This document shows, piece by piece, positions 29,119-44,015 of a stretch of 64,000 bases of DNA. Location of the stretch: NCBI GenBank assembly GCA_027452025.1, contig DAIDHI010000088.1:1-64000 (forward strand), given 5' to 3'. The stretch is from Elusimicrobiota bacterium (GTDB lineage: Bacteria > Elusimicrobiota > Elusimicrobia > UBA1565 > UBA9628). Each line of letters starts with the position of its first letter. The stretch's first letter is position 1. Made by a program: the position numbers and the translations under genes. The notes under the pieces are model-generated. The model did not search any database and had not been told where the DNA came from. It saw only the letters and a list, made by a program, of their open reading frames with translations.

Positions 29119-30624
29119 ATGACGACGACGACCGCTTCCGAAATTCACAGCGATCTCCAAGCTTTTTTGCGCAAATCCCCCCACAAGCTGCTGATCGGCG
29201 GCCAGTGGCTGCCGGCGGCTTCGGGCAAGACCTTCGAGGCCTACGACCCGGCGACCGGCGAGGCGATCGCGCGAGTAGCGGAGGCCGCCGCCGAGGACGT
29301 CGACCGGGCGGTCAAAGCCGCGCGCGCCGCGCTCGACGGCCCGTGGGCGAAGATGAGCCCGGCCGAGCGCGAGCGCGTCCTGCACCGCGCCGCCGATCTC
29401 ATCGAAAAGCACGCCGAGGAGCTGGCGCAGCTCGAGTCGCTCAACAACGGCAAGACGATCCGCGAGGCCAAGAGCGGCGACCTCCCCCTTTCCGTCGCGC
29501 TGTTTCGCTACTACGGCGGCTGGCCCACCAAGATCCACGGCGAGACCGTTCCGGTGTCCGTGCCCTACTATCCGGGCGCGAAGTTCCTGCACTACACGGT
29601 GCGCGAGCCCGTCGGCGTCGTCGGCGCGATCATCCCGTGGAACTTCCCTCTTCTCATGGCGGTGGAGCGCCTGGCGCCGGCGCTGGCTTGCGGCAACGCC
29701 GTCGTGCTCAAGCCCGCCGAGCAGACGCCGCTGTCCGCGCTGAGGTTGGGAGAGTTGCTGCTGGAAGCCGGGCTTCCGGAAGGCGTCGTCAACGTGGTGC
29801 CCGGCTTTGGCGAGACGGCCGGCGCGGCGCTCGCCGCCCACCCGGACGTCGACAAGATCACCTTCACGGGCTCGACGGAGGTCGGCCGCAAGATCATCCA
29901 GGCGTCGGCCGGCAACATCAAGAAGGTCTCGCTCGAGCTCGGCGGCAAGTCCCCCAACATCGTATTCGCCGACGCGGACCTCGAGGCCGCGGCCAAGGGC
30001 ATGTTCATGGGCATCTTCTACAACCAGGGCCAGACCTGCTCCGCCGGCTCGCGGGTCTTCGTCGAGCGCTCGAAGTTCGAGGAGCTTGTCCACGCGCTCG
30101 CCGAGCGCGCCAAGACCGTGCGCCAGGGACCGGGACTGGACCCGAGGACGCAGATGGGGCCGCTGGTCTCCGAGGAGCAGAAGCGCCGCGTGCTCGGCTA
30201 CATCGAGGCGGGCAAGAAGGAAGGCGCCAAGCTCCTGGCGGGCGGCGAGAGCGGGGCGGGCAAGGGCTATTTCGTCAAGCCCACGGTGTTCTCCGAGGTC
30301 AAGGACGGAATGAAGATCGCCCAGGAGGAGATCTTCGGCCCGGTCGTCTCCGTCATGCCCTTCGACAGCGTCGACGAGGTTGTTTCCCGGGCCAACGGCA
30401 CGCCCTATGGGCTCGTCGCGGGTCTTTGGACCAAGGATATCAAGAAGGCTCACCAGCTCTCCCAGCGCATCAAGGCGGGCGTCGTCTGGATCAACTGCTA
30501 CCAGTTCGTCGACGCGGCCGCGCCCTGGGGCGGCTACAAGCAGAGCGGCTACGGCCGCGAGAAGGGACAATATGCCGTCGACCTCTACACGCAGCTCAAG
30601 AGCGTATGGGTGGATCTGAACTGA
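29119..30624 (+). CDS. NAD(P)-dependent aldehyde dehydrogenase
   Basis: 501 residues, full length for the ALDH superfamily. The catalytic Cys307 lies in YNQGQTCSAGSR and the general base Glu273 in SLELGGKSPN; the cofactor loop is FTGSTEVGRKI and IPWNFPLL is conserved. Similarity in layout is greatest to betaine, phenylacetaldehyde or medium-chain aldehyde dehydrogenases. It opens an operon with two crotonases, a PaaA-like oxygenase subunit and a hydroxyacyl-CoA dehydrogenase, suggesting oxidation of an aldehyde to an acid destined for CoA-linked breakdown. It overlaps the next gene by 19 bases. Confidence 0.93.
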   Translation: MTTTTASEIHSDLQAFLRKSPHKLLIGGQWLPAASGKTFEAYDPATGEAIARVAEAAAEDVDRAVKAARAALDGPWAKMSPAERERVLHRAADLIEKHAEELAQLESLNNGKTIREAKSGDLPLSVALFRYYGGWPTKIHGETVPVSVPYYPGAKFLHYTVREPVGVVGAIIPWNFPLLMAVERLAPALACGNAVVLKPAEQTPLSALRLGELLLEAGLPEGVVNVVPGFGETAGAALAAHPDVDKITFTGSTEVGRKIIQASAGNIKKVSLELGGKSPNIVFADADLEAAAKGMFMGIFYNQGQTCSAGSRVFVERSKFEELVHALAERAKTVRQGPGLDPRTQMGPLVSEEQKRRVLGYIEAGKKEGAKLLAGGESGAGKGYFVKPTVFSEVKDGMKIAQEEIFGPVVSVMPFDSVDEVVSRANGTPYGLVAGLWTKDIKKAHQLSQRIKAGVVWINCYQFVDAAAPWGGYKQSGYGREKGQYAVDLYTQLKSVWVDLN

Positions 30625-31382
30625 TCCTCCAAGAGACGCGCGGCTCCCTCGCGCTCCTGCGGCTCAACCGCCCGCAGGCGCTCAATGCCCTCAATCACGC
30701 GCTCATGGACGAGCTCGAGAACGCCCTCGACCGGATCGAGAAGGATGCGGCGATCCGCGCCGTCGTCATCGCGGGCAGCGAGCGGGCGTTCGCCGCCGGC
30801 GCCGACATCAAGGAGATGGACTCCAAGACGAGCGAGCAGATGTCGGCCGACCCGCATCTCGGCCGCTGGGACAAGCTCGGCGCCTTTCCCAAGCCGACGA
30901 TCGCCGCCGTCTCGGGCTTTGCCCTCGGCGGAGGCTGCGAGCTGGCGCTGGCCTGCGACATGATCGTCGCTTCCGAGTCGGCGGTTTTCGGCCAGCCCGA
31001 GATTCTGATCGGCGTCATTCCCGGCGCGGGCGGCACGGTCCGCTTGGCCAAGGCCCTGGGTAAGCAGCGGGCCATGGAACTGGTGCTGACGGGCCGGCGG
31101 GTCACGGCGCGGGAAGCCGCCGCTTTGGGCTTGGTCAACCGCGTGGCTCCGGTCGAGTCCTATCTCGACGAGGCGCTCAAGCTCGCCGAGCAGGTGGCCG
31201 CGCAGCCGCCGCTGGCGGCGCGCGCCGCCAAGACCTCGATCCTGCACGCCTTGGACGTGGGACTCTCGGACGCGCTGTCGGCGGAGCGGCGCCTGTTTTG
31301 GGAGCTCTTCGACACGGAAGACCAGAAGGAAGGCATGAAGGCATTCGTCGAGAAGCGCAAGGCGGTGTTCCGTGGGCGCTGA
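30606..31382 (+). CDS. enoyl-CoA hydratase/isomerase (crotonase family)
   Basis: 258 residues from the ATG at 30606, inside the end of the aldehyde dehydrogenase gene. Crotonase landmarks: LLRLNRPQALNALN, FAAGADIKEM for the oxyanion hole, GFALGGGCELALACD and the second catalytic region PEILIGVIPGAGGT. Glu residues at both positions of the hydratase pair (CELAL and QPEI) are present, so true 2-enoyl-CoA hydratase activity is likely. The role is in beta-oxidation of a fatty or aromatic ring-opened CoA ester. Confidence 0.9.
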   Translation: MGGSELILQETRGSLALLRLNRPQALNALNHALMDELENALDRIEKDAAIRAVVIAGSERAFAAGADIKEMDSKTSEQMSADPHLGRWDKLGAFPKPTIAAVSGFALGGGCELALACDMIVASESAVFGQPEILIGVIPGAGGTVRLAKALGKQRAMELVLTGRRVTAREAAALGLVNRVAPVESYLDEALKLAEQVAAQPPLAARAAKTSILHALDVGLSDALSAERRLFWELFDTEDQKEGMKAFVEKRKAVFRGR

Positions 31383-32175
31383 GACGGCCGTTTCCGAGCT
31401 CCTGGTCGAAAAGTCCGAGGGCGTCGTCACCGTGACCCTCAACCGGCCCGACGTCCTCAATTCCCTGACGATGTCCATGATGGCGGGGTTGACGAAGGCG
31501 CTCAAGGACGCGGAAAAGGACAAGGAAACCCGTTGCGTGATCCTCACGGCGGCCGGCCGGGCCTTTTGCGCCGGCGCCGACCTCGGCGACTTGCACCGGC
31601 GGCAGGCCGCGAAGGCGTTCTCGCTTGGAGACGAGCTGCGCGACCATTTCAACCCCCTGATCCTCCAGATCCGCCGCATGGAGAAGCCCGTCATCGGGGC
31701 CGTCAACGGCCTGGCCGCGGGCGCGGGCGCGAGCCTGATCCTCTCGTGCGATCTCAAGGTCTGCGCCGACTCGGCCCAGTTCATCAACGCTTTCGTTAAA
31801 GTGGGCTTGGTCCCCGACTCCGGGATGACCTATTTCATGCCGCGGTTTTTGGGACTGTCCCTCGCCCTCGAGCACGCTTGGACGGCCAAACCGGTGACGG
31901 CACAGCAGGCTCTTCATTTCGGCTGGGTCAACCGCGTCGTCAACGCGCAGGACGTCCAAGTGCAGGCCCGCGAGCTCGCGCAGGAGCTGTGCCGCCTGCC
32001 GCCGCTGGCCCTCGCGCTCACCAAGCGCGCGATGAACCAAGCCCTCGAGAACACTCTCGAGGGGCAGATGGAATACGAGGCCCAGCTGCAGGAAGTCCTG
32101 GGCAAGACCAAGGACCACGCCGAGGGCGTCCGCGCGTTTCTCGAGAAGCGCGCCCCCGTCTTCAAAGGAGAATAG
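31372..32175 (+). CDS. enoyl-CoA hydratase/isomerase family protein (PaaG-like)
   Basis: 267 residues with a GTG start overlapping the preceding gene by 11 bases. VTVTLNRPDVLNSL, AFCAGADLGDL and NGLAAGAGASLILSCD define the crotonase fold. At the positions where hydratases carry two Glu residues this protein has Ala-Ser (GAGASL) and VGLVPDSGMTYFMPR with Asp, the pattern of PaaG-type isomerases that move double bonds in ring-opened oxepin-CoA. That makes a phenylacetate-like pathway plausible, though other isomerases share the pattern. Confidence 0.88.
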   Translation: MGAETAVSELLVEKSEGVVTVTLNRPDVLNSLTMSMMAGLTKALKDAEKDKETRCVILTAAGRAFCAGADLGDLHRRQAAKAFSLGDELRDHFNPLILQIRRMEKPVIGAVNGLAAGAGASLILSCDLKVCADSAQFINAFVKVGLVPDSGMTYFMPRFLGLSLALEHAWTAKPVTAQQALHFGWVNRVVNAQDVQVQARELAQELCRLPPLALALTKRAMNQALENTLEGQMEYEAQLQEVLGKTKDHAEGVRAFLEKRAPVFKGE

Positions 32176-32179
32176 CTTT

Positions 32180-33007
32180 ATGGCCAAAGAGCCCGAGCGC
32201 GTCAAGCAAGAGAAGCTGCAGGAAAAGCTTTCCCGCGGCGGAAAAGTGGAGATGCTCGACGAGATGACCGACGAATATCGCGGCCACCTGACCCATCTCA
32301 TGATGATGCAGGCCGACTCCGAGTTGGCCGGGGCCTTCGGCTACGTCCCCTGGATCACGAAGTCCCCCGACATCAAGGAGACCCTCCAGGTCGCGCAGAT
32401 CGTCAAGGACGAGGTGCGGCACGCGCGCGTGATGTACCGGCTCCTCGAGGGAGTCGGCGTCGACGTCGACAGATACTACAAGGAGCATAACTTCAATCTG
32501 CGGGTCGACCAAGCCGACATCGGCACGCTGCGCGTGGCCGACGACAAGCGCGTCAACATCTTCTACTACCCCATCGAGACGTGGTTCGACTTCATCATGT
32601 TCAACTTCTGCATGGATCGCGGCGCCGGCCATCAGTTGGAGGACTCCCTCGACTGCTCCTACAAGCCGTGGTGCGAGGGCATGGAGGGCATCTTCAAGGA
32701 AGAGGCCATGCACATGGCCCACGGCGACCAGTGGACGCAGCGGCTTTCCGAGGATTCCAAGACCCACGCGGGGCTGCAAAAGGCTCTCGACAAGTGGTAC
32801 CCGCGCACGATGAACATCTTCGGCCGCAAGGACTCCCCCAAGAACGCGATCTACCGCAAGCTCGGCCTAAAGAAGCGCGACAATGAGGAAGTGCGCCAGG
32901 CCTTCGCCAAGGACGTCGCCGGCCTTTGCGCGAAGTTCCGCCTGCGCGTGCCCGACTGGAAGCCCGAAGCCTCCAAGATGTCCGAAGAGCCCTTCATCCC
33001 GGGCTGA
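32180..33007 (+). CDS. PaaA/PaaC-family diiron oxygenase subunit (phenylacetyl-CoA epoxidase-like)
   Basis: 275 residues preceded by an AAAGGAG site. The ferritin-like diiron ligands can be read: Glu48 (ADSELAG), Glu78 and His81 (KDEVRHARVMYR), Glu133 (PIETWFDF) and Glu175 with His178 (FKEEAMHMAHG). This matches PF05138, the PaaA catalytic or PaaC structural subunit of 1,2-phenylacetyl-CoA epoxidase; retention of all ligands favours the catalytic PaaA type. E. coli PaaA is about 309 residues. No PaaB, C, D or E gene is adjacent, so its partners and electron donor are elsewhere or different. Confidence 0.85.
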   Translation: MAKEPERVKQEKLQEKLSRGGKVEMLDEMTDEYRGHLTHLMMMQADSELAGAFGYVPWITKSPDIKETLQVAQIVKDEVRHARVMYRLLEGVGVDVDRYYKEHNFNLRVDQADIGTLRVADDKRVNIFYYPIETWFDFIMFNFCMDRGAGHQLEDSLDCSYKPWCEGMEGIFKEEAMHMAHGDQWTQRLSEDSKTHAGLQKALDKWYPRTMNIFGRKDSPKNAIYRKLGLKKRDNEEVRQAFAKDVAGLCAKFRLRVPDWKPEASKMSEEPFIPG

Positions 33008-33010
33008 ACG

Positions 33011-34093
33011 GTGATCCACCGCGTCGGTGTTGTCGGCGCCGGCACGATGGGCTGCGGCATCGCCCAGCTCTGCGCGCAAAGCGGCTTCGCCGTCAAGGTC
33101 TTCGACTCCCAGGCGGCCGCGCTCCAGAGCCTGCCCGATCGGCTCAAGAAGGGTTTGGATGCCGGGGTCCTGCGCGGAAAGCTCACGACGCACCAAGCCG
33201 AGCGGGCATTCCACTCCGTCGCCGCGTCCGAATCGCTCGAGGGCCTTTACGGCGCCGAGTTGATCATCGAGGCCGCCGCCGAGGACCTGGCGGCCAAGAA
33301 GGATATCTTCTCGAGGCTCGACGCCGCCTGCCCGGACGGCATCCTCGCCACCAACACTTCGTCGCTGTCCGTCGCCGGCGTCGCCGAGGCGGTCGAGCAC
33401 CCGGAACGGGTGCTGGGCATCCACTTCTTCAATCCCCCGGTCGCCATGAAGCTGGTCGAGATGGTGAGAACGCCCCAGACCGCCCCCTCGGCGTTTCGCG
33501 AGGCCTGGGACTTCGTGCTGTCGGGCCTTCGCCGCACGCCCGTGGACGTCAAGGACACGCCCGGCTTCATCGTCAACCGCGTCATGCGGCCCTATTATCT
33601 CGAGTGCCAGCGCGCGGCCGCGCGGGGCAGCGGCATCGCGGCCCTGGACGAGGCGGCCCGCAAGGCGGGCGGCGTGCCGATGGGTCCTTTCGAGCTGATG
33701 GACCTCATCGGGCTCGACGTCAACCTCGCCATCACCAAATCCCTCTATGAGGCTCTGGGTCGTCCGGACCGCTTCAAGCCCCAGCCCTTGCAGGAGAAGC
33801 TCGTGGCCATGGGCCAGACGGGCCGCAAGGCCGGCCGGGGGTTTTACGTGCACAATGGGAAGGACTTCCCGTTCGAAAACCCCGAGGCCGCCGCTCTGGT
33901 CGCCCCCGCCGGCGGCGCGAGCGCCTCGGACGCCTGGCATCGCGTGATCGGGGCCGTCATCGCCGAGGCGCAGATGGTTTTCGAGGAGGGCTCGGCCGGC
34001 AAGGCCGACATCGACTTGGCGATCAAACTCGCTATGAATTTCCCAAAAGGACCGTTCGAATGGCAAAAGGCCGGCGAGCCAAAGGCCGCGTAG
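33011..34093 (+). CDS. 3-hydroxyacyl-CoA dehydrogenase (PaaH/FadB-type)
   Basis: 360 residues with a GTG start three bases after the PaaA-like gene. The NAD-binding motif VGVVGAGTMGCGIAQL opens the protein; the catalytic His is in GIHFFNPPVAMKLVE, and TPGFIVNRVMRPY plus GGVPMGPFELMDLIGLDV belong to the first C-terminal domain. Extra sequence after residue 280 (a second, partial C-terminal 3HCDH domain) makes it longer than the roughly 285-residue single-domain enzymes. It oxidises 3-hydroxyacyl-CoA after the hydratase step encoded upstream. Confidence 0.92.
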   Translation: MIHRVGVVGAGTMGCGIAQLCAQSGFAVKVFDSQAAALQSLPDRLKKGLDAGVLRGKLTTHQAERAFHSVAASESLEGLYGAELIIEAAAEDLAAKKDIFSRLDAACPDGILATNTSSLSVAGVAEAVEHPERVLGIHFFNPPVAMKLVEMVRTPQTAPSAFREAWDFVLSGLRRTPVDVKDTPGFIVNRVMRPYYLECQRAAARGSGIAALDEAARKAGGVPMGPFELMDLIGLDVNLAITKSLYEALGRPDRFKPQPLQEKLVAMGQTGRKAGRGFYVHNGKDFPFENPEAAALVAPAGGASASDAWHRVIGAVIAEAQMVFEEGSAGKADIDLAIKLAMNFPKGPFEWQKAGEPKAA

Positions 34094-34296
34094 CGCCGCT
34101 GCCGCCGCGCCTGGGCGACGCCGTGGCGGCCAACCGGGCCGTTCTGAAGGTCCTGGACAAGCACGGGATCACGTTCTGCGCGGGCTGCTACCTGACTCTG
34201 TTCTCGTCGCCCGAAAAGGCCGCTCTCTATCACGCTGTGCCCGATGCGGGGGCGTTCCTAAGGGACCTGCGCCGGGCTCTGCGGCGGCAGGCATAG
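34060..34296 (+). CDS. small CxxC protein, DUF1858-like
   Basis: 78 residues, starting inside the end of the dehydrogenase gene. After a basic leader, the core VLDKHGITFCAGCYLTLFSSPEKAAL has the CxGC arrangement and spacing of DUF1858, a small domain that often accompanies redox or iron-sulphur enzymes. Family assignment is by pattern only. Its last 39 bases overlap the convergent transposase remnant, so the natural C-terminus may have been altered by the insertion. Confidence 0.55.
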   Translation: MAKGRRAKGRVAPLPPRLGDAVAANRAVLKVLDKHGITFCAGCYLTLFSSPEKAALYHAVPDAGAFLRDLRRALRRQA

Positions 34297-34674
34297 GCGC
34301 AATCTCACCCAAAGCATCTCTTGCCAGAGAGTGTCGCGGCGGCAGGCGGGCAGCGCGCGGGTCCAAGGCTCCAATTCGTCGCCCCGAATGCCGTTGAGAA
34401 GGCTATCCCAAAGACGCTCGAGCGTCCCGTCGCGCAGCCACCGATCGAGACGCCGAAACGCCGTGCGACGCGAGCCGAAACGCTCCGGCAGTCGTTCGAG
34501 GAAGCGCGCGCGGTTGCGGAGCGTCCAGAGGATCGCCTCGAAGGCGGCTTTATCGCTGGCGCGCGGGCGGCCGCCGCGACGCTTGGCCTTGCGAAACGGC
34601 CGCTTGTATCGCGGCAAGAGCCCCTTGATGGAATCCCATTGGGTCTCGCTGAGCCCCGGCCATTGATCGTCCAT
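34258..34674 (-). pseudogene. IS5-family transposase N-terminal fragment (DUF4096), remnant
   Basis: 138 residues with the N-terminal domain of IS5/IS427-type transposases: LSETQWDSIKGLLP, then GGRPRASDKAAFEAILWTLRNRA and RFGSRRTAFRRLDRWLRDG. In complete elements a second frame encoding the DDE catalytic core follows, often reached by frameshift. Here the frame ends and runs straight into the 3' end of the dehydrogenase operon, so the catalytic part is missing. No terminal inverted repeats are evident. It is a decayed insertion, or possibly a domesticated DNA-binding fragment. Confidence 0.75.
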
Positions 34675-35885: not shown

Positions 35886-36251
35886 TTATTGCGGGCGGGA
35901 AAATCTTTGGTCAAACGCGAAGCGCAGGCGCGCCAGACGTTCGTAGAGCGCCCCCCCGACGAGCCGCGCCCCTGGCAGCCGGAGGAGCGGCGCCGCGAGC
36001 CACAGCGACGGCAACAGGAGGCTCAGCCGCCTCAAAGCGGCGAAGCCGGCCGTCAGGCGGCCGCCGTCCTCGAGGAGATGGATCTTGGTCTCGCAAGCGG
36101 CGAGAGTCAGCCGGGGATCCAGGAGGGCCGGGTCGCGGCGCCGGAAGTCGACGAGCTCGACTTGACCTAGGAAGTCAACGAGCGCCAGGCGCCGGGCCGC
36201 CCGGACGCAGAAGCAGCAGTCGCCGTCAAACAGAAGACGGGCGCGGCGCAT
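35886..36251 (-). CDS. DCC-family thiol-disulfide oxidoreductase (DUF393)
   Basis: 121 residues. The diagnostic FDGDCCFCVRAAR near the N-terminus gives the DxDCxxC motif of PF04134, a thioredoxin-like family. It is the last gene of the trxB-lipA-2-oxoacid dehydrogenase-lipB operon and overlaps lipB by 26 bases. A thiol redox role beside lipoyl and thioredoxin-reductase genes is reasonable but unproven. Confidence 0.85.
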   Translation of the reverse strand: MRRARLLFDGDCCFCVRAARRLALVDFLGQVELVDFRRRDPALLDPRLTLAACETKIHLLEDGGRLTAGFAALRRLSLLLPSLWLAAPLLRLPGARLVGGALYERLARLRFAFDQRFSRPQ

Positions 36252-36849
36252 CGAAATAGGCGAGAAAAGCGTCGGCGACCGTCCGCAAGACGGCCTGGAA
36301 GTCGAGCCGGCGGCCGAGGAGGCCCTCTAAATCGGTCATCTGCTCGGGCTGGAGATTGCAGGGATAGATCGCCCGGAAAGGCTCCAGGTCGCAGCAGACG
36401 TTGAGCGCGAAGCCGTGGTAGGAGATTCGATCCTTGACGGCGACCCCGATCGAGGCCACTTTCCGGCCCCGACACCAGACGCCGGTGAAGCCCTTCAAGG
36501 TCTCCGCCTCGAGGCCGAGAGGACGCAAAGCCTCGATGAGCACCGCCTCGAGGGATCGAAGGTAAGACCGGGCCGTCAGCCCGCGTTTGTGAAGGTCCAG
36601 GATGGGATAGCCGACGAGTTGCCCCGGGCCGTGGTAGGTGAAGTCTCCTCCCCTCTCCACGATGCGATAGGGATGGGGCAGCGGTGCGGGGGCCACGGCC
36701 TTGGAGGAAACGCCGCAGGTGTAGACCGGCGGATGCTCGACGAGCAGCAGCGTATCTGAGCCTTGGCCGCGGAGCCGCTCGGCGACGAGGAGGCGCTGGA
36801 GGCGCCAGACCTCGTCGTAGTCCTTGAGCCCGAGCGCCCGGATCAGCAC
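36226..36849 (-). CDS. lipB: octanoyl-[acyl-carrier protein]:protein octanoyltransferase
   Basis: 207 residues with a GTG start. LipB moves octanoyl groups from ACP to the lipoyl domain Lys. The motifs are intact: LLVEHPPVYTCGVSS, the RGGDFTYHGPGQLVGYPILDL block with the conserved His, GVWCRGRKVASIGVAVKDRISYHG with the catalytic Lys, and ALNVCCDLEPFRAIYPCNL with the catalytic Cys region. It lies in the same operon as lipA and an E2 protein carrying the acceptor lysine. Confidence 0.95.
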   Translation of the reverse strand: MLIRALGLKDYDEVWRLQRLLVAERLRGQGSDTLLLVEHPPVYTCGVSSKAVAPAPLPHPYRIVERGGDFTYHGPGQLVGYPILDLHKRGLTARSYLRSLEAVLIEALRPLGLEAETLKGFTGVWCRGRKVASIGVAVKDRISYHGFALNVCCDLEPFRAIYPCNLQPEQMTDLEGLLGRRLDFQAVLRTVADAFLAYFDAPRPSSV

Positions 36850-36850
36850 G

Positions 36851-38257
36851 TCAGACGCGTCCGGGCGTCAGGATATGGATCGCCTGCCCGACCGCCGCCT
36901 CCGCGGCCTCCTGGAAGGACTCGTTGAGCGTCGGGTGCGGGTGGATGGTCGCCGCCACGTCCTCGATGGTCGCTTCCAGCTTGACTGCCAGGCAGGCCTC
37001 TCCGATGAGGTCGGAGGCGCTGGGGCCCACGAAGCCGGCTCCCAGGATCCTGTGGCTCTCCTTGTCCGCGATCACCTTGCAAAAGCCCTCGGGCTCGCGC
37101 ACGGCCTGAGCGCGTCCGGACGCCGAAAACGGGAAGCGCCCGACCACGACGTCCACGCCCCGGGCCTTCGCTTCGGCCTCGGTCTCTCCGACAAAGGATA
37201 TCTCGGGATCGGTGAAGACGGCCCACGGCACCGCGCCGCGCTCTTCCTTGGAGAATCCGGCGATCACCAACGCCGCGATGATGCCCTCGCGCGAGGCCTT
37301 GTGCGCCAGGTACGGCGCTCCGACGACGTCGCCGGCGGCGAAGATGTTTGGGCAGCTCGTGCGTTGCTCGTCGTTGACTCGGATGTGGCCCTTCGCGTCG
37401 GTCTCGACGCCGGCGGCCTCGAGACCGAGGCCCTTGGTCACGGGCGCGCGGCCCACGCTGACGAGAACCTTGTCGGTCTCTAGGACTTTCTCGCCCTCGG
37501 GCGTCTCTATCGTCACGGCCAAGCCCTCGCCCGACGGCGCCGCGCTCTTGGCCTTGCTCTGGAGATGCACCTCGACGCCGAGCTTTTGGAGATTGCGGGT
37601 GACCGGGACGACGAAGTCTCCATCGATGCCGGGCAGGACGTTCGGCATGAACTCCACGACGGAGACCTTGCTGCCGAGCTTGGCGTAGAAGGTGCCGATC
37701 TCGAGGCCGATGACGCCGCCGCCGATGACGACGAGGCGGTCCGGCGCCTGCGGCAGTTCCAGGGCCTCCTTCGAGCTGAGAATCTTGTGGCCGTCGAAGG
37801 CAAAGCCCGGGATTTGAATGGGCCGGGTCCCCGTCACGATCAGGGCATGCTCGAAGGTCACAGTCTCCACGCCGGCGGACGTGCGGACCTCGGCTGAGTT
37901 GGGGCCCGTGAGCTTGGCCTCGCCGGCCAGGACGTCCACCTTGTTGCCTTTCTCCAGGCCGGCGATGCCGCGCACGAACCCGCCGACGAGCTGGTTCTTC
38001 CAGGCCTGGACTTTCGCCCAATCGAGGGTGCAAGAGCCCGCGTCGAGACCATACGGAGCGGACTTCTTCGCCTTGTAGAGCTGGCCGGCGGCGTGGATCA
38101 GGGCCTTGGACGGGATGCAGCCGTAGTTGAGGCACTCGCCGCCGAGCTTGTCTTTGTCGACGAGCAAGGTTTTCTTCCCGAGCTTGCCGAGCTTGATCGC
38201 GGCCACGTAGCCGCCGGGTCCGGCTCCCACGACGAGGACTTGCGTTTCGATGGCCAT
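36851..38257 (-). CDS. lpdA: dihydrolipoyl dehydrogenase (E3)
   Basis: 468 residues. FAD motif VLVVGAGPGGYVAAIKLGKLG; redox-active disulfide in GGECLNYGCIPSKAL; NAD motif VVIGGGVIGLEIGTFYAKLG; C-terminal catalytic His-Glu in IHPHPTLNESFQEAA. It reoxidises dihydrolipoamide on the E2 subunit and passes electrons to NAD+. The gene follows E2 by seven bases and precedes lipB by one. Confidence 0.97.
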   Translation of the reverse strand: MAIETQVLVVGAGPGGYVAAIKLGKLGKKTLLVDKDKLGGECLNYGCIPSKALIHAAGQLYKAKKSAPYGLDAGSCTLDWAKVQAWKNQLVGGFVRGIAGLEKGNKVDVLAGEAKLTGPNSAEVRTSAGVETVTFEHALIVTGTRPIQIPGFAFDGHKILSSKEALELPQAPDRLVVIGGGVIGLEIGTFYAKLGSKVSVVEFMPNVLPGIDGDFVVPVTRNLQKLGVEVHLQSKAKSAAPSGEGLAVTIETPEGEKVLETDKVLVSVGRAPVTKGLGLEAAGVETDAKGHIRVNDEQRTSCPNIFAAGDVVGAPYLAHKASREGIIAALVIAGFSKEERGAVPWAVFTDPEISFVGETEAEAKARGVDVVVGRFPFSASGRAQAVREPEGFCKVIADKESHRILGAGFVGPSASDLIGEACLAVKLEATIEDVAATIHPHPTLNESFQEAAEAAVGQAIHILTPGRV

Positions 38258-38264
38258 GGTTCGA

Positions 38265-39452
38265 TTAGAGCAGCGTGCGAGGGTTTTCCAGGTGCTTGAT
38301 CAGGGTGTTCATGAAGCTCGCGGCCTGGGCCCCGTCGTTGACGCGATGGTCGAAGGAGAGCACCAAGTTCGCCATGTCGCGGATCTGGACGGAGCCGTCG
38401 CGCACGACCGGGCGCTTTTGCAGCTTGAGGATGCCGAGAATCGCCACCTCCGGATAGTTGATGATCGGGGTCGCGAAGAGCCCGCCCAGGGGCCCGATGT
38501 TGGTGATGGTGAAGGTTCCGCCCTGCAGTTCGGAGACTTCGATCTTGCCGGAGCGGGCCTTGTCGGCCAGGCGGTTGAGGTCGGCGGCCAAGGCCCAAAG
38601 GTCTTTGCCTTCCACGCCCTTGATCACGGGCACGATCAGCCCCGATTCGGCCGAGGTGGCGACGCCGAAGTTGTAATAGCGCTTGCGCACGATCGCCCCG
38701 CCGGCCTCATCGAGGACGGCGTTGAAGTTCGGAAACTCCTTGAGAGTCTTGAGCAGCGCGCGCATGACGAAGGGCAGGTAGGTGAGCTTGATGCCGCGCG
38801 TGGCCGCCTCCCCCTTGAGCTGCTCGCGCAGCGAGACCAGAGCGGTCCAGTCCGACTCGTCCATGTGCGTGACGTGGGCGGCGGTGCGCACGCTCTGGGC
38901 CATCTTTTCGGCCGTCTTGCGGCGGATGCCGACGAAAGGGACGCGTTCCTCGGCGCCCCCGTCCGCGGCCGCGGCGGCCGTCGCGGTCTTGCCTCCCGAA
39001 GCCGCCGCCTTGCGCACGTCGTCTTCGGTGACGCGGCCGCCGGGGCCGGTGCCCTGGACGGAGGCCAGATCGACCTTCAGGTCGGAGGCGAGCTTGCGCA
39101 CGGCCGGCGTCGCCGACACGGTGGCCGTCGAGGAGGCGGCCGGGGCTTGGCGTTGGGCCTGCGGCGCGGGCGCGGCGGCGGGCTTATGCCCGTCGGCGGC
39201 CAGCGCGGCGCCGCCGGCCAAGTCGAAAGAGACGAGCGGCGCGTGCACCTTGACCTTCTCCCCCTCCTTGGCGAAGAGCTTGACGATCTTGCCGTTTTTG
39301 GGGCTCGGGATTTCCACCTCGGCCTTATCGGTCAGGACGTTGCACAGCGGCTGGTTCTCCTTGACGGAGTCGCCTTCCTTGACGTGCCACTTGACGACCT
39401 CGCCCTCGGTGAGGCCCTCTCCGATGTCCGGCAGCTTGAATTCGTAATTCAT
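38265..39452 (-). CDS. dihydrolipoamide acyltransferase (E2) of a 2-oxoacid dehydrogenase complex
   Basis: 395 residues from the ATG at 39452, which has AAGGAG about nine bases upstream. A single lipoyl domain (residues 1-80; acceptor Lys in LTDKAEV), an Ala/Pro linker, a peripheral-subunit-binding domain (AVRKLASDLKVDLASVQGTG) and the catalytic core ending in SFDHRVNDGAQAA with the active-site His and Asp. One lipoyl domain and this layout fit acetyl-, branched-chain- or acetoin-type complexes. The start overlaps the stop of an unusual membrane-protein gene (ATGA). Confidence 0.94.
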   Translation of the reverse strand: MNYEFKLPDIGEGLTEGEVVKWHVKEGDSVKENQPLCNVLTDKAEVEIPSPKNGKIVKLFAKEGEKVKVHAPLVSFDLAGGAALAADGHKPAAAPAPQAQRQAPAASSTATVSATPAVRKLASDLKVDLASVQGTGPGGRVTEDDVRKAAASGGKTATAAAAADGGAEERVPFVGIRRKTAEKMAQSVRTAAHVTHMDESDWTALVSLREQLKGEAATRGIKLTYLPFVMRALLKTLKEFPNFNAVLDEAGGAIVRKRYYNFGVATSAESGLIVPVIKGVEGKDLWALAADLNRLADKARSGKIEVSELQGGTFTITNIGPLGGLFATPIINYPEVAILGILKLQKRPVVRDGSVQIRDMANLVLSFDHRVNDGAQAASFMNTLIKHLENPRTLL

Positions 39453-40063
39453 GTCGTTTGACTCCTTCGCGCCAGCCTTTGGACGGCGTGCCATGCAAAT
39501 AGAGCGCCCTGGCCGATCGAGAACAGCGACGCGACCTTGCCCGGCCAGCCGTGGATCACGAACCTGACGGCCTCGTAGGCGCGCCCCACCCAGGGGCTGC
39601 CGAGCAGCTGCGTGTGCACGCAAAACGCCAAATAGGCGACGAGCCCGCCAGCGTAACCCAGGATAGCATATTCGTTGATCTCCCCCGTGCGCTCGGCGTA
39701 GGCGGCGCCGAGCACGAGATACGTGAAGGCGAAGCCGGCGGCCTGATACGCGAGAAAGTAGTCGGTGCCGCCCTTCTCGCGGATGATGCCCAAGGCCAGC
39801 ACCGCCGAGAACGCCACTCCGAGGGTGAAGTTGTAGCCCACGGCGAGCAAGGCCGCCAGCGAGTCGTCGAGGCAGTCGTGAACCTTGAGAACGGCGAAGC
39901 TGAAGATCTGGGACAGAAACCAAAACGCCCCGGAGAGCGCCGAAAGGAAGAATGCGATCTCGACGACGGGATAGCGCCGTCGCAGGACGAGGACCCAGAC
40001 CTTATAGGCGTCGCGCCACTCGATGAGCCGGGTGACGGCCGGCACCGCCGAGTCGAGCGTCAT
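39449..40063 (-). CDS. integral membrane protein inside the 2-oxoacid dehydrogenase operon
   Basis: 204 residues with about five hydrophobic helices (VEIAFFLSALSGAFWFLSQI; LLAVGYNFTLGVAFSAVLALGI; YFLAYQAAGFAFTYLVLGAAY; YAILGYAGGLVAYLAFCVH). No known family is recognised. Its ATG follows the E1-beta stop immediately, and its stop overlaps the E2 start, so it is made in step with the complex. It could anchor the complex at the membrane or transport a substrate; both are speculation. Confidence 0.75.
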   Translation of the reverse strand: MTLDSAVPAVTRLIEWRDAYKVWVLVLRRRYPVVEIAFFLSALSGAFWFLSQIFSFAVLKVHDCLDDSLAALLAVGYNFTLGVAFSAVLALGIIREKGGTDYFLAYQAAGFAFTYLVLGAAYAERTGEINEYAILGYAGGLVAYLAFCVHTQLLGSPWVGRAYEAVRFVIHGWPGKVASLFSIGQGALFAWHAVQRLARRSQTT

Positions 40064-41065
40064 CTAGAACGACAGCGTCTCCTTGGCGGCCAGCGCCACG
40101 CGCTCGGCGTCCGGGATATAGAAGCGCTCGAGGCGAAACAGCGGCATCCGGATGTCCCAGCTTCCCACCCTCCTGACCGGAGCCTTGAGCTTGAGCAAGG
40201 CCCGTTCGGATATGAGCGCGCAAAGTTCGGCGGCCCAGGAGCCCATGTTCGGAGCCTCGTGGGCGATCACGACGCGGCCCGTCTTCTCGACGGTCGAAAG
40301 CAGGGACTCGAGGTCGACGGGGGCCAGCGTGCGCAAATCGAGAACCTCGGCCGAGATACCGTCCTTGGACAGCTCCTCGGCGGCCTTGAGGCAGGTGTGA
40401 ACCATCGCGCCCCAGCAGATCAGGCTGATGTCGCCGCCCTCGCGGGCCAGGCGGGCCTTGCCGAGCGCAGTCTCGTAGGGCCGCTCCGGCACCGGGCCGC
40501 GAGCGGCGCGGTAGAGGAGCTTCGGCTCGAAAAAAACCACCGGGTCCGGATCCTTGATCGCGGCGATGATGAGGCCTTTGGCGTCCTCGGGCGTCGATGG
40601 CACGACGACCTTAATGCCGGGAGTGTGACAAAAATAGGCCTCCGGGGACTCCGAATGGTGCTCGGGCGCGTGGATAAGGCCTCCGTGGGGCGCTCGCAAA
40701 ACGAGCGGGACGGTGTTATGCCCGCGGCTGCGGTTGCGCAGGCGCCCGAGGTGACAGACCACTTGGTCCAGCACGGAGGGCAGAAACCCGTCGAATTGGA
40801 TCTCGCAGACGGGACGCAGGCCGGCGACGGCCAGGCCGATGGACGCGCCCATGATGCCCAGTTCGGCCAGCGGCGTATCGATAACCCGCTCGCCGCCGAA
40901 CTTCTGGTATAACCCCTCGGTCACGCGAAAGACCCCGCCGTTGACGCCCACGTCCTCGCCGAGAATCAGCACGCGCTCGTCCGCTTCCATGGCTTGGCGC
41001 AGGCCCTCGTTGATCGCCTGCACGAGATTGAGCTCGCGCGTCGCGGTTCCATTGGCCGCGCTCAC
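40064..41065 (-). CDS. pdhB: 2-oxoacid dehydrogenase E1 component, beta subunit
   Basis: 333 residues with a GTG start that overlaps the E1-alpha stop (GTGA), preceded by GGGAGG. Family blocks: VQAINEGLRQAMEADERVLILGEDVG, FRVTEGLYQKFGGERVIDTPLAE, GLIHAPEHHSESPEAYF and VPSTPEDAKGL. With E1-alpha it decarboxylates a 2-oxoacid using thiamin diphosphate and acylates the E2 lipoyl group. Pyruvate or a branched-chain 2-oxoacid is the likely substrate; sequence alone does not decide. Confidence 0.93.
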   Translation of the reverse strand: MSAANGTATRELNLVQAINEGLRQAMEADERVLILGEDVGVNGGVFRVTEGLYQKFGGERVIDTPLAELGIMGASIGLAVAGLRPVCEIQFDGFLPSVLDQVVCHLGRLRNRSRGHNTVPLVLRAPHGGLIHAPEHHSESPEAYFCHTPGIKVVVPSTPEDAKGLIIAAIKDPDPVVFFEPKLLYRAARGPVPERPYETALGKARLAREGGDISLICWGAMVHTCLKAAEELSKDGISAEVLDLRTLAPVDLESLLSTVEKTGRVVIAHEAPNMGSWAAELCALISERALLKLKAPVRRVGSWDIRMPLFRLERFYIPDAERVALAAKETLSF

Positions 41066-42186
41066 GGGAACCTCCCTTCCGCCGGCGGCAGCGCCGGGAC
41101 CTCTTGGCGGTCGGCCTTGAACTCCAGGAGCTTCTCGAGCTGCGCTCGCTGCTCGACGAGCGGCCATGGGGCCCGCTCGTAATTCTCGGAGAACATGTCG
41201 AGAGGATTTGGCGGCGGGAAGGCCTCATAGGCGTCCACCTCGGCCTGGACCATCGCCTGGGCCTGGTCGAGCAGCGCATTCTCGCGAGCCTCGTCCCAAA
41301 GCCCGCGTTTCTCCAGATAACGGCGCAGGCGCGGCACCGGGTCCTTGCGCTTCCAGGCCTCGACCTCGGCCGAGGAGCGGTAGCGCGTGGCGTCGTCGGC
41401 CGTGGTATGGTGGCCGAGCCGGTAGGTCTCGCACTCGATGACGCTCGGGCCTTGGCCGGCGCGCGCGCGCGCGATCGCCCGGGTCGCCGCGGCCCAGACG
41501 GCCAGCGGATCGTTGCCGTCGACTTGCAGGCCGAAGACGCCGTAGCCGTGCGCCTTTTGAGCCAGAGTCTTGGCGGCGGCTTGGCGCTCGCGCGGCACGG
41601 AGATCGCCCAGTGGTTGTTCTCGATGACGTAGATGGCCGGCAGCTTGAACTGCCCGGCGAAGGTCAGCGCCTCATGGAAGTCTCCCTTCGACGAGGTCCC
41701 GTCGCCGAGATAGGTCAGCGCGACGGACCCGTCCCCCTTGAGCTTGGAGGCCCAGGCCAGGCCGGCGACTTGCGTCAGATGCGTGCCGACTGGGATCGAA
41801 AAGATCATGTCGCGCTCTTGGCCGAAGCGCACGCCGCGGTCGTCGCCGGCCCAATAGAGGAGCGAGTAGCGCAGCTGCATCCCGCGGGCATAGTACGCGC
41901 CCTGGCCGCGGTACGTCGGCACCAGCCAGTCGCGGGGCTCCAGGCACAGCGCCGGGATGACTTGACTGGCCTCCTGGCCTAGGATCTGGGGATACGTGCC
42001 CAGGCGTCCCTGGCGCTGGAGCTTGATCGCCCTCTCGTCGAAGAGGCGAATCTCCACCATCTTGCGGTAGATGTCGAGCAGCACCGGTTCGGGGACGTCC
42101 ACGGAAACGGCCGCATCGATGCAGCCCTCGGGGCTCAAGATCTCGAGGCGCTGGGTTTTCTCCTGCGAGACGGTCTCAAGCGCCAT
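41062..42186 (-). CDS. pdhA: 2-oxoacid dehydrogenase E1 component, alpha subunit
   Basis: 374 residues from the ATG at 42186, which lies 11 bases inside lipA; an upstream in-frame start would add 30 residues unlike the family. The thiamin-diphosphate motif GDGTSSKGDFHEALTFAGQFKLPAIYVIENNHWAIS is complete, and YRLGHHTTADDATRYRS is the phosphorylation-loop region seen in both pyruvate and branched-chain E1-alpha. Length and sequence suit the alpha2beta2 type of Gram-positive, thermophile or mitochondrial complexes. Confidence 0.94.
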   Translation of the reverse strand: MALETVSQEKTQRLEILSPEGCIDAAVSVDVPEPVLLDIYRKMVEIRLFDERAIKLQRQGRLGTYPQILGQEASQVIPALCLEPRDWLVPTYRGQGAYYARGMQLRYSLLYWAGDDRGVRFGQERDMIFSIPVGTHLTQVAGLAWASKLKGDGSVALTYLGDGTSSKGDFHEALTFAGQFKLPAIYVIENNHWAISVPRERQAAAKTLAQKAHGYGVFGLQVDGNDPLAVWAAATRAIARARAGQGPSVIECETYRLGHHTTADDATRYRSSAEVEAWKRKDPVPRLRRYLEKRGLWDEARENALLDQAQAMVQAEVDAYEAFPPPNPLDMFSENYERAPWPLVEQRAQLEKLLEFKADRQEVPALPPAEGRFP

Positions 42187-43081
42187 GGCGCGCCTCCAAG
42201 AGGCCTTTGAGGAATAGCTCTCCGGCCCGATACGAGCTGCGCACGAACGGCCCGGACGCCACATAGGCAAAGCCAAGCCGCCGCGCGGCCCGGCCCAGGG
42301 CGTCGAAGCGCTCGGGGCTGAGGAATTCGACGGCGGGCAGATGAAGGGGACGGCCCGTGGGCCGAAGGTACTGGCCGAGGGTAATGATGTCGACGCCTGC
42401 GGCGCGCAGATCGCCCAAGGTCTCCAAGACCTCGGTCTCCGTCTCCCCGAGGCCGAGCATCAGCGAGGATTTGGTCGGGACGCTCGGCCGCAGGCGCTTG
42501 CTCGCCCGCAGCACCGCAAGAGACTGGTCGTAGCCCGCTTTGGCGTCGCGGACGGCGGGCGTCAGGCGGCGCACGGTCTCGACGTTGTGGGCCATGACGT
42601 CAGGGCCGGACTCGAGGACGCGCAGAAGCAGCGTCTCGTCGCCCCGGAAGTCCTGGGCCAGCAGCTCGAGCTTGAGGCCGGGACAGCGCGCCTTGACGGC
42701 GCGCACGCAGGCGGCCAAGTGCCTGGCGCCCTGGTCGGGGAGGTCGTCGCGGCAGACGGTGGTCAAGACGGCGTAGTCCAGGCCCATCTCCGAGAGCGTC
42801 TGCGCGAGCTTCTCCGGCTCCTCGGCGTCGGGCAGCGGCGCGCGCGCCGCCGTGGCGACCGAGCAGAAGCGGCAGCCTCGCGTGCAGGAGTCTCCCATGA
42901 CCATGAACGTGGCCGTGCCGCCGCCCCAGCACTCGGCGATGTTGGGGCAGCGCGCCTCCTCGCAGACGGTGGACAGGCCCCGGCCCGAGGACGCCGCCTT
43001 GATGCGCTCGAAGCTCTCCCCGCCGGGAAGCTTGACCTTGAGCCAGGGCGGCAGGCGCCGGGTTTCGGCGGCCCTACTCAT
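42176..43081 (-). CDS. lipA: lipoyl synthase
   Basis: 301 residues from the ATG at 43081, inside the end of trxB. LipA is a radical-SAM enzyme that inserts two sulphurs into octanoyl groups. The auxiliary-cluster cysteines are in CEEARCPNIAECW, and the radical-SAM cysteines in DSCTRGCRFCSV. LMLGLGETETEV and TLGQYLRPT are also family-typical. With lipB in the same operon, the cell can build lipoate on the E2 protein encoded between them. Confidence 0.96.
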   Translation of the reverse strand: MSRAAETRRLPPWLKVKLPGGESFERIKAASSGRGLSTVCEEARCPNIAECWGGGTATFMVMGDSCTRGCRFCSVATAARAPLPDAEEPEKLAQTLSEMGLDYAVLTTVCRDDLPDQGARHLAACVRAVKARCPGLKLELLAQDFRGDETLLLRVLESGPDVMAHNVETVRRLTPAVRDAKAGYDQSLAVLRASKRLRPSVPTKSSLMLGLGETETEVLETLGDLRAAGVDIITLGQYLRPTGRPLHLPAVEFLSPERFDALGRAARRLGFAYVASGPFVRSSYRAGELFLKGLLEARHGA

Positions 43082-44015
43082 GGCCGCCGGCCAGGAAGCG
43101 CTCGGCCTCGAGCGCGGCCATGCAGCCCGCGCCCGCGGCCGTGATCGCCTGGCGGTAGCGCGAGTCCATGACGTCGCCGGCCGCGAAGACCCCTTGGACG
43201 GAGGTGCGGGTTCGGCCGTCGGCGGCGATGTAGCCGTTGGCATCGAGCTTGAGCTGACCGCCGAGGAAGTCCGTGGTCGGCGCGTGGCCGATCGCCACGA
43301 AGAGGCCCTGACAGGAGATTTGCGACTCCACGTTGTTCTTGACGTTGCGCAGCTTCACGCCGTCGACGTGGCCGTCGCCGAGGACCTCCGTGACGACGCT
43401 GTCCCAGATGAAGCCGACCTTCGGATTGCGCAAGGCGCGGTCCTGCATGATCTTGGAGGCGCGCAGTTCGTTGCGGCGATGGATGATGGTGACCTTGGAG
43501 GCGAACTTCGTCAAAAAAGTGCCTTCCTCGAGGGCGGTGTCGCCTCCCCCCACGACGACGACTTCCTTGCCCTTGAAAAAAAAGCCGTCGCAGGTCGCGC
43601 AGGCCGATACCCCGTGGCCCATCAGCCGCTTCTCCGAGGGCAAGCCCAGCCACTTCGCGTTGGCTCCGGTGGCGACGATGACCGCGCCGGCCCTCGCCCG
43701 CGTGCCTTCGGTCGTTTCGAGCTCGAAGGGACGCTTCGAGAAGTCTGCTTTAGCGACGTATTCGGGGATGATCTTGACGTTAAGCCGCTCGCACTGCTTG
43801 CGCATGCGGTCCATGAGCTCGGGGCCCATGACGGGCTCGGGAAAGCCGGGAAAATTCTCGACGTCGGAGGTGATCATGAGCTGGCCGCCCATGGAGACGC
43901 CTCCGAAAAGGAGCGGCTGAAGATCGGCGCGGGCGGAGTAGATCGCCGCCGTATAGGCGGCCGCGCCGGAGCCGACGATGACGACTTTGCGGTTCTCGGT
44001 TTTGCTTTCGGACAT
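43074..44015 (-). CDS. trxB: thioredoxin reductase
   Basis: 313 residues. FAD motif VVIVGSGAAAYTAAIYSARA, active-site disulfide GVSACATCDGFFFKG, NADPH motif VVVVGGGDTALEE, and AAGDVMDSRYRQAITAAGAGCMAALEAE at the C-terminus. It keeps thioredoxin reduced, using NADPH. As first gene of the lipoyl operon, it has a TATAAT box (minus strand 44025-44030) nine bases from the ATG, which overlaps a TATAAC box facing folB. Confidence 0.95.
   Translation of the reverse strand: MSESKTENRKVVIVGSGAAAYTAAIYSARADLQPLLFGGVSMGGQLMITSDVENFPGFPEPVMGPELMDRMRKQCERLNVKIIPEYVAKADFSKRPFELETTEGTRARAGAVIVATGANAKWLGLPSEKRLMGHGVSACATCDGFFFKGKEVVVVGGGDTALEEGTFLTKFASKVTIIHRRNELRASKIMQDRALRNPKVGFIWDSVVTEVLGDGHVDGVKLRNVKNNVESQISCQGLFVAIGHAPTTDFLGGQLKLDANGYIAADGRTRTSVQGVFAAGDVMDSRYRQAITAAGAGCMAALEAERFLAGGHE

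Follow-up and report, generated by a model that had tools for sequence, protein, structure and literature searches.

A lone PaaA-like diiron protein as a putative single-polypeptide phenylacetyl-CoA-type epoxidase in Elusimicrobiota and other phyla

The window (the whole 64,000-nucleotide stretch of Elusimicrobiota DNA analyzed here) carries a six-gene operon on the forward strand, whose features are collected with those nearby in Table 1. The initial annotation had placed a PaaA-like diiron protein in an operon with an aldehyde dehydrogenase, a hydratase, a PaaG-like isomerase and a dehydrogenase. Family matches and identities to E. coli enzymes bore out these four partners, and the five named genes stand; a sixth, the last of the operon, had been overlooked.

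Table 1. Features of the window at and beside the lone PaaA-like gene.
Feature	Position	Strand	Length	Evidence or remark
Aldehyde dehydrogenase	29119..30624	+		PF00171, E 5e-189
PaaF-like enoyl-CoA hydratase	30606..31382	+		ATG start inferred at 30606, overlaps the aldehyde dehydrogenase end
PaaG-like isomerase	31372..32175	+		TIGR02280 (PaaG) is the best model, 268 bits vs cut-off 345
Lone PaaA-like diiron protein	32180..33007	+	275 aa	PF05138, alignment, own clade, predicted structure
PaaH-like 3-hydroxyacyl-CoA dehydrogenase	33011..34093	+	360 aa	Single-module; PF02737/PF00725
CxGC protein, last operon gene	34060..34296	+	78 aa	First 34 bp shared with the PaaH-like gene
IS5-type transposase fragment	34258..34674	-		61 vs cut-off 110 bits; abuts the operon end
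ORF with CCFC motif	35886..36251	-	121 aa	No NCBIfam match
2-oxoacid dehydrogenase cluster	36226..44015	-		LipB, E3, E2, 204-aa protein, E1beta, E1alpha, LipA, thioredoxin reductase; NCBIfam

The aldehyde dehydrogenase has StyD as its best NCBIfam model (642 bits, short of the cut-off of 850) and is 25% identical to the aldehyde dehydrogenase domain of PaaZ, with its Cys307 aligned to PaaZ Cys295. The hydratase is 48% identical to E. coli PaaF and aligns Glu114 and Glu134 with PaaF Glu109 and Glu129; a general enoyl-CoA hydratase model fits it best (316 vs 396 bits at the cut-off), and the PaaF model gives 291 vs 371. The isomerase is 43% identical to E. coli PaaG, aligns LVPD with the LIPD of that enzyme and has none of the PaaF-type glutamates. 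We take the PaaF glutamates and the IPD stretch of PaaG to be functional residues. The dehydrogenase is 43% identical to E. coli PaaH over 280 aa. No pathway enzyme of the operon reaches its NCBIfam equivalog cut-off. Elsewhere in the window's genome (G000), contig C90 encodes a 3-oxoadipyl-CoA-type thiolase scoring 534 bits against a cut-off of 605, which no control genome passed, and homologues of all five enzymes of a hybrid Paa pathway (PaaG, PaaF, PaaH, semialdehyde dehydrogenase and 3-oxoadipyl-CoA thiolase) are present in G000. The ORF beside this thiolase resembles, by eye, a thioesterase-like family that also occurs close to lone PaaA genes in three other loci (L063, L081 and L097).

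At the downstream end of the operon, the ORF of the transposase fragment extends, on the opposite strand, over the final 39 bases of the 78-aa protein's gene. The 121-aa ORF beyond it is presumably DCC-like. The E1alpha of the 2-oxoacid dehydrogenase cluster scores 410.6 bits with a model named pyruvate dehydrogenase, whose cut-off is 411.35, and it is possible that this cluster could supply phenylacetyl-CoA from phenylpyruvate.

The lone gene is a real PF05138 ORF, and its product belongs to the PaaA_PaaC superfamily both by Pfam score (126.3 bits against a gathering cut-off of 28.5, E 1.6e-36) and by fold (Foldseek, structural alignment). It fell short of the NCBIfam equivalog cut-offs for PaaA (TIGR02156, 111.2 vs 280 bits), PaaC (46 vs 133) and BoxB (TIGR03225, 36.7 vs 499.1), and is 26% identical to PaaA of E. 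coli K-12. PaaA is the nearest structure to its AlphaFold2 model (pLDDT 91.8; Z 28.8, rmsd 2.1, 250 residues) and also the top Foldseek rank; SSO1313 (Z 26.1), PaaC (23.2) and BoxB (22.5) are the next structural matches.

The diiron ligands had been given in the initial annotation as Glu48, Glu78, His81, Glu133, Glu175 and His178. All of these except Glu133 are invariant in the 78 rows of the clade (75 distinct); Glu133 was rejected as an iron ligand because its column is variable (E in 38 rows, D in 30 and other letters in 10), and the fourth carboxylate is the equally invariant Asp146. The columns of E48, E78, H81, D146, E175 and H178 align with E42, E72, H75, D126, E155 and H158 of E. coli PaaA, which we take to be diiron ligands, and the lone protein would appear to carry the six ligands of a catalytic diiron PaaA. 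The lysine bridge of PaaA is reported to comprise Lys68, Glu49, Glu72 and Asp126 (PMC4498308). This bridge is not conserved in the clade, where the columns of Lys68 and Glu49 hold Ile74 and Tyr55 in 78/78 rows. An insert at about residues 97-125 of the lone proteins holds invariant Arg108, Arg118, Asp122 and Arg124, opposite which PaaA shows gaps or unlike residues, and BoxB shows Arg at the columns of Arg108 and Arg118.

Compared with known systems, the lone protein resembles PaaA of PaaABCE (E. coli 3PVR/3PW8; PaaABC 4IIT) most closely in fold and shares with it the six ligand columns and the types of downstream enzyme, whereas the low identity, the insert, the missing lysine bridge and the lack of PaaB, PaaC, PaaD or PaaE nearby set it apart. 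BoxB, the benzoyl-CoA 2,3-epoxidase, likewise has Glu, Glu, His, Asp, Glu and His at the ligand columns and is described as a diiron aryl-CoA epoxidase with no need of a structural subunit (PMC4498308). It is, however, much longer, at 475 aa in L119 and 481 in the PDB, falls in another tree group, is a more distant structural match and belongs to a system that uses the BoxA reductase. SSO1313 of Sulfolobus solfataricus (PDB 4MUD) is a PF05138 protein close in structure to our model, but it is 23% identical and groups with BoxB in the tree, where it is represented by a partial sequence and sits on a long branch.

The initial annotation described the gene as lone, with PaaBCDE not adjacent, and named a full paaABCDE cluster elsewhere as the finding that would make it a redundant paralogue. 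Searches of G000 (3.2 Mb, 105 contigs, 94% complete) for paaB, paaC and paaK returned none of them, and that for paaE gave a match far below the cut-off; the lone gene is its sole PF05138 match, and no full cluster was found in the assembled 94%. When 56 relatives were added (57 genomes in all), PF05138 was present in 35, exactly once in each, with 34 above the family cut-off and the last (G038) a fragment at a contig end. PaaB (PF06243) was not found in G000 or any other of the 57 genomes, and the gene is thus not encoded with paaB and paaC in this set. PaaK was above its cut-off in 0/57 genomes, with weak matches in 43 and none in G000. The PaaE cut-off was likewise passed by none of the 57, with weak matches in 34; the best match in G000 scored 66 bits against 421, and 14 of the 35 PaaA-positive genomes had no match at E 0.001. 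Among 14 named control genomes, PF05138 was detected in 4, PaaB in 3, PaaK above its cut-off in 1 and PaaE in 0, and the PaaE test therefore says little. A PaaE-type reductase was set aside as a partner on these weak matches, by the same weak test. The S. acidocaldarius control has PF05138 matches without PaaB. COX1 was above its cut-off in 35/35 PaaA-positive vs 15/22 PaaA-negative genomes (Fisher p 6e-4, kinship ignored), an excess in line with an enzyme that uses O2.

Scanning genome contigs yielded 72 loci, or 73 with the window, many of them ended by contig ends. By record titles, mostly of MAGs, the lone clade spans at least seven phyla, the titles naming Elusimicrobia, Bacillota including Tumebacillus, Actinomycetes, Bacteroidetes, Kryptoniota, Vampirovibrio, Cyanobacteria, Chloroflexi, Rokubacteria, Calditrichaeota, Tanganyikabacteria and one Parcubacteria bin. 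A phylogeny against PaaA, PaaC and BoxB-like proteins, as the initial annotation had proposed, placed the lone proteins in one separate group of 51 rows with an SH-aLRT of 99. The tree is a quick maximum-likelihood tree of 83 rows, midpoint-rooted, with SH-aLRT support in place of bootstrap and several long outgroup branches. PaaA formed a group (99) minus one divergent Thermus plasmid PaaA, PaaC a group (96) plus one unassigned row, BoxB-Sulfolobus a group (97) and Ruegeria/Bartonella another (100), and the order between groups lacks support.

Loneness was also assessed in 29 genomes of other phyla, from 29 of the 32 such loci. The lone gene was the sole PF05138 gene in 22 of them, and PaaB was absent from 23. 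The remaining six (G063, G064, G069, G070, G076 and G082) also hold PaaB and PaaA-type relatives, and G083 holds a second PF05138 gene on the BoxB side of the tree. Coexistence with canonical PaaA and PaaB speaks against a plain substitution by the lone gene and would allow for a different substrate.

Several further PF05138 proteins were seen along the way. Divergent paralogues of 52-95 bits (G063:C65, G069:C61, G082:C131 and G083:C77) belong to none of the PaaA, PaaC and lone groups; two cluster with BoxB. On the Ruegeria sp. AD91A plasmid (L118, 5983-6744), an extra PF05138-type protein directly follows paaABCDE and groups with two Bartonella HY406 plasmid proteins beside a PaaX-type regulator (L123), forming a further orphan clade. 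Thermus thermophilus TF24 plasmid pTF24b (L120, 5998-8401) carries a divergent second paaA_2/paaC_2 pair on long tree branches, with short hypothetical proteins alone between the two genes. An Alteromonas macleodii plasmid (L122, 5938-8293), which also bears a Tn3 transposase, encodes a phenylacetic acid catabolic protein and, after it, a radical SAM protein and a MaoC dehydratase, an unusual PF05138 context.

Across the 73 loci, neighbors of the lone gene included a crotonase in 61, a PaaH-like dehydrogenase in 45, an aldehyde dehydrogenase in 43, E2, E1beta and E3 in 20, 19 and 19, a thiolase in 15 and an EthD protein in 11. In Chloroflexi loci L099-L101 the gene order is PaaX-PaaK-EthD-crotonase-lone PaaA; TIGR02155 PaaK is the best family in L099 and L101 (597 and 594 bits, cut-off 646), and the PaaX of L100 scores 221 against 265. 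Loci L072 and L103 share the order EthD, PaaG-like crotonase, lone PaaA, small protein, two 3-hydroxyacyl-CoA dehydrogenases and thiolase, followed by amino-acid dehydrogenase and 2-oxoacid dehydrogenase genes and, in L103, also an aldehyde dehydrogenase. Their crotonases have PaaG as the best model (282 and 290 vs 345). In Tumebacillus L072, PaaX is above its cut-off (267.7 vs 264.55) and the thiolase just below that of 3-oxoadipyl-CoA thiolase (599 vs 605); PaaX was not seen in L103 within the stretch examined. The PaaX, PaaK, PaaG-like and thiolase neighbors argue, by association, for phenylacetyl-CoA as the putative substrate, and this context ties the lone PaaA to phenylacetate. The best models for E1alpha in the scanned loci, as in the window, are named pyruvate dehydrogenase, so a route from phenylpyruvate is offered as a suggestion. 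For the later steps, an alternative oxepin-CoA hydrolase with a pacL-like aldehyde dehydrogenase has a fitness-supported precedent in Paraburkholderia (PMC9007349).

Two candidate partners were considered in these neighborhoods and rejected, an EthD protein as a universal partner and, on a search of the window, a Rieske ferredoxin as electron donor. EthD occurs in 11/73 loci, and its best match in the window, with a single EthD query, has an E of 0.94. In a Calditrichaeota bin, a Rieske ferredoxin (PF00355; L090, 3546-3884) directly follows the lone PaaA and its small partner and is a possible electron donor in that lineage; the best match to it within the window has an E of 3.8.

The overlooked 78-aa protein is a neighbor that accompanies the lone gene in the window's lineage. 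It matches its L035 homologue at a tblastn E of 4e-20, and a same-strand homologue lies near the lone PaaA in 37/41 Elusimicrobiota loci (named loci plus the window), in 11/32 named other-phylum loci, and in 68/104 loci once 31 more, many with identical DNA, are added. At E <=1e-18, a profile of the family (A2) detected it in 33/35 PaaA-positive and 0/22 PaaA-negative genomes (Fisher p 8e-14, kinship ignored), with the best PaaA-negative genome (G010) at E 3e-6. Of the two misses, the contig of G025 ends 700 bases past the PaaA match, and in G038 the PaaA fragment lies 3 bases from the contig end. In other phyla, the profile search found the small protein adjoining the lone gene in 9/29 genomes (E <=1e-12) and did not find it in the other 20, and it is therefore not universal.

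By sequence, the small-protein family may be distantly ScdA_N/DUF1858-like, an assignment we make tentatively. The window protein matches ScdA_N (PF04405) at 14.8 vs 32.5 bits (E 0.02) and has no DUF1858 (PF08984) match. Homologues also stay below the gathering cut-offs: the Tumebacillus copies of L072 (ScdA_N 29.1 vs 32.5, DUF1858 29.1 vs 32.2) and L103 (28.5 and 21.1), and that of L034 (ScdA_N 22.0), while those of L035, L063, L090 and L092 match neither family. A PDB profile search gave weak top matches to a DUF1858-like NMR structure (E 0.013) and S. aureus ScdA (E 0.03), and the predicted structure (pLDDT 82.8) matches 2k5e and 2k53, also weakly (E 0.097, probability 0.99). An unrelated membrane-protein model also matched the window protein, at chance level (E 0.04). 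All 18 rows of profile A2 keep Cys40 and Cys43. The cysteines are absent in four Elusimicrobiota homologues (L042, L045, L048 and L085) and in L090, all outside A2; in those four, CxGC is replaced by DAGT, and in three of the four loci other genes lie between the lone PaaA and the dehydrogenase.

Published systems offer several parallels for such a protein. The N-terminal domain of ScdA is reported to boost the activity of its diiron domain (PMC12412097), and in YtfE a channel connects the diiron site with the ScdA_N domain (PMC9268430). RIC/YtfE/ScdA proteins thus combine, as here, a small helical cysteine-motif domain with a diiron helical bundle, and the 78-aa homologues weakly match that domain; in the window, however, the two parts are encoded by separate genes, and the diiron protein belongs to PF05138. 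SufT (DUF59) proteins that carry a fused DUF1858 have been reported (PMC4982691), and PaaD is a predicted DUF59 protein required in vivo (PMC4498308). On these precedents, the 78-aa protein can be read as a PaaD-like maturation factor or a redox partner. The cysteine motif of YtfE is described as dispensable for diiron-center formation (PMC9268430) and cysteine-free ScdA as still active (PMC12412097), which argues against a direct cysteine role in the small protein; DUF1858 proteins are also said to include a CxxU selenoprotein (PMC9312934). The 78-aa protein is probably a helper of the lone PaaA in the window's lineage.

Judged from sequence, predicted structure and gene context, the lone protein is probably, though by no means securely, a single-polypeptide phenylacetyl-CoA-type epoxidase that would feed a Paa-like pathway and, in the window's lineage, have a small partner of its own. 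The separate clade, the PaaA-like fold and the PaaX, PaaK, PaaG-like and thiolase neighbors elsewhere lend support to the suggestion of the initial annotation that it may be a reduced or different CoA-ester oxygenase. The bacterium would seem to open aromatic rings with a single iron protein, a task for which known bacteria employ a machine of four or five proteins. One PF05138 polypeptide, as monomer or homo-oligomer, would do the job of PaaABC(D)E and use O2 to epoxidize phenylacetyl-CoA or a closely related aryl-acetyl-CoA. The PaaG-like isomerase would then form the oxepin, a putative crotonase-type hydrolase would open it, the operon aldehyde dehydrogenase would oxidize the semialdehyde, and PaaF- and PaaH-like enzymes with a 3-oxoadipyl-CoA-type thiolase encoded elsewhere would yield acetyl-CoA and succinyl-CoA. 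The CoA ester would come from PaaK in Chloroflexi and, where PaaK is lacking, probably from phenylpyruvate via the 2-oxoacid dehydrogenase complex, and the 78-aa CxGC protein would load or maintain the iron site or pass reducing equivalents. Several observations count against this reading: the window operon has no reductase gene, the lysine bridge is lost, the small protein was not found in 20/29 other-phylum genomes and is variable in its cysteines, E1alpha is pyruvate dehydrogenase-like and the pathway enzymes are below their cut-offs. In addition, E. coli PaaA by itself is reported to be insoluble, and each gene from paaA to paaE to be required in vivo (PMC4498308), which also argues against a single polypeptide.

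The same chemistry might act on another CoA ester, such as 4-hydroxyphenylacetyl-CoA or indoleacetyl-CoA from tyrosine or tryptophan, an alternative we regard as unlikely but worth serious consideration. Five Bacillota/Actinomycetota genomes (G063, G064, G069, G070 and G076) have canonical paaABC plus the lone gene, which in the loci of three of them (L077, L078 and L092), and in L093, lies beside 2-oxoacid dehydrogenase genes; the amino-acid dehydrogenase of Tumebacillus also has tryptophan dehydrogenase as its best model, below the cut-off (367 and 353 vs 600). However, PaaK and PaaX in Chloroflexi and PaaX in Tumebacillus L072 point back to phenylacetate, and PaaF-, PaaG- and PaaH-like enzymes with a 3-oxoadipyl-type thiolase suit an unsubstituted ring. 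A hidden multi-subunit enzyme, in which unrelated proteins encoded elsewhere take the roles of PaaC and PaaB, seems to us less likely again. PaaA of E. coli, Klebsiella and Pseudomonas is reported to need partners (PMC4498308) and the window operon shows no electron donor, but no second PF05138 gene occurs in 22/29 other-phylum genomes or in any of the 35 PaaA-positive ones, and BoxB demonstrates that a PaaA homologue can function without a structural subunit (PMC4498308). The sole extra gene shown to track the lone PaaA in the lineage is that of the 78-aa protein, mostly absent in other phyla. It is highly improbable that the gene is catalytically dead or a paralogue made redundant by a complete paaABCDE system: canonical paaA/paaB accompany it in 6/29 other-phylum genomes, but G000 and its 56 relatives have neither paaB nor a second PF05138 gene, and the ligand columns are invariant in 78/78 rows. 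For G000 itself, 94% complete, redundancy is largely ruled out.

The lone PF05138 clade is apparently undescribed. Our literature search, with most subscription papers and all preprints outside its coverage, found no description of a lone PaaA clade or of the small partner. In a 2009 study, paaA, B, C and D occurred as a set in all 25 of 25 clusters (PMC2653477). A 2026 survey, which covered 6,536 genomes, retained those contexts in which PaaA and PaaC accompany PaaK, and it found both in all 825 proteomes counted as PaaK-encoding (PMC13186573); such a filter would drop the lone clade. Its main text does not contain "Chloroflexi" but does name Thermomicrobia, and calls archaeal configurations incomplete (PMC13186573). 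If the lone clade is functional, surveys that use PaaA and PaaC as markers would overlook whole lineages.

More speculatively, and with doubts that outweigh our confidence, the clade might represent a third class of CoA-dependent aromatic epoxidase, whose members come, by record titles, from seven phyla or more. In such a class, one PF05138 polypeptide would replace PaaABC, with the CxGC protein instead of PaaB/PaaD/PaaE in Elusimicrobiota, Bacillota/Actinomycetota and Calditrichota, and phenylalanine-derived phenylacetyl-CoA would be burnt with a minimal gene set. Tumebacillus provides named species with the cluster, and the genome of T. avium is complete. If functional, the protein would be a simple enzyme for aryl-CoA epoxidation chemistry, with a helper protein whose loss is directly testable.
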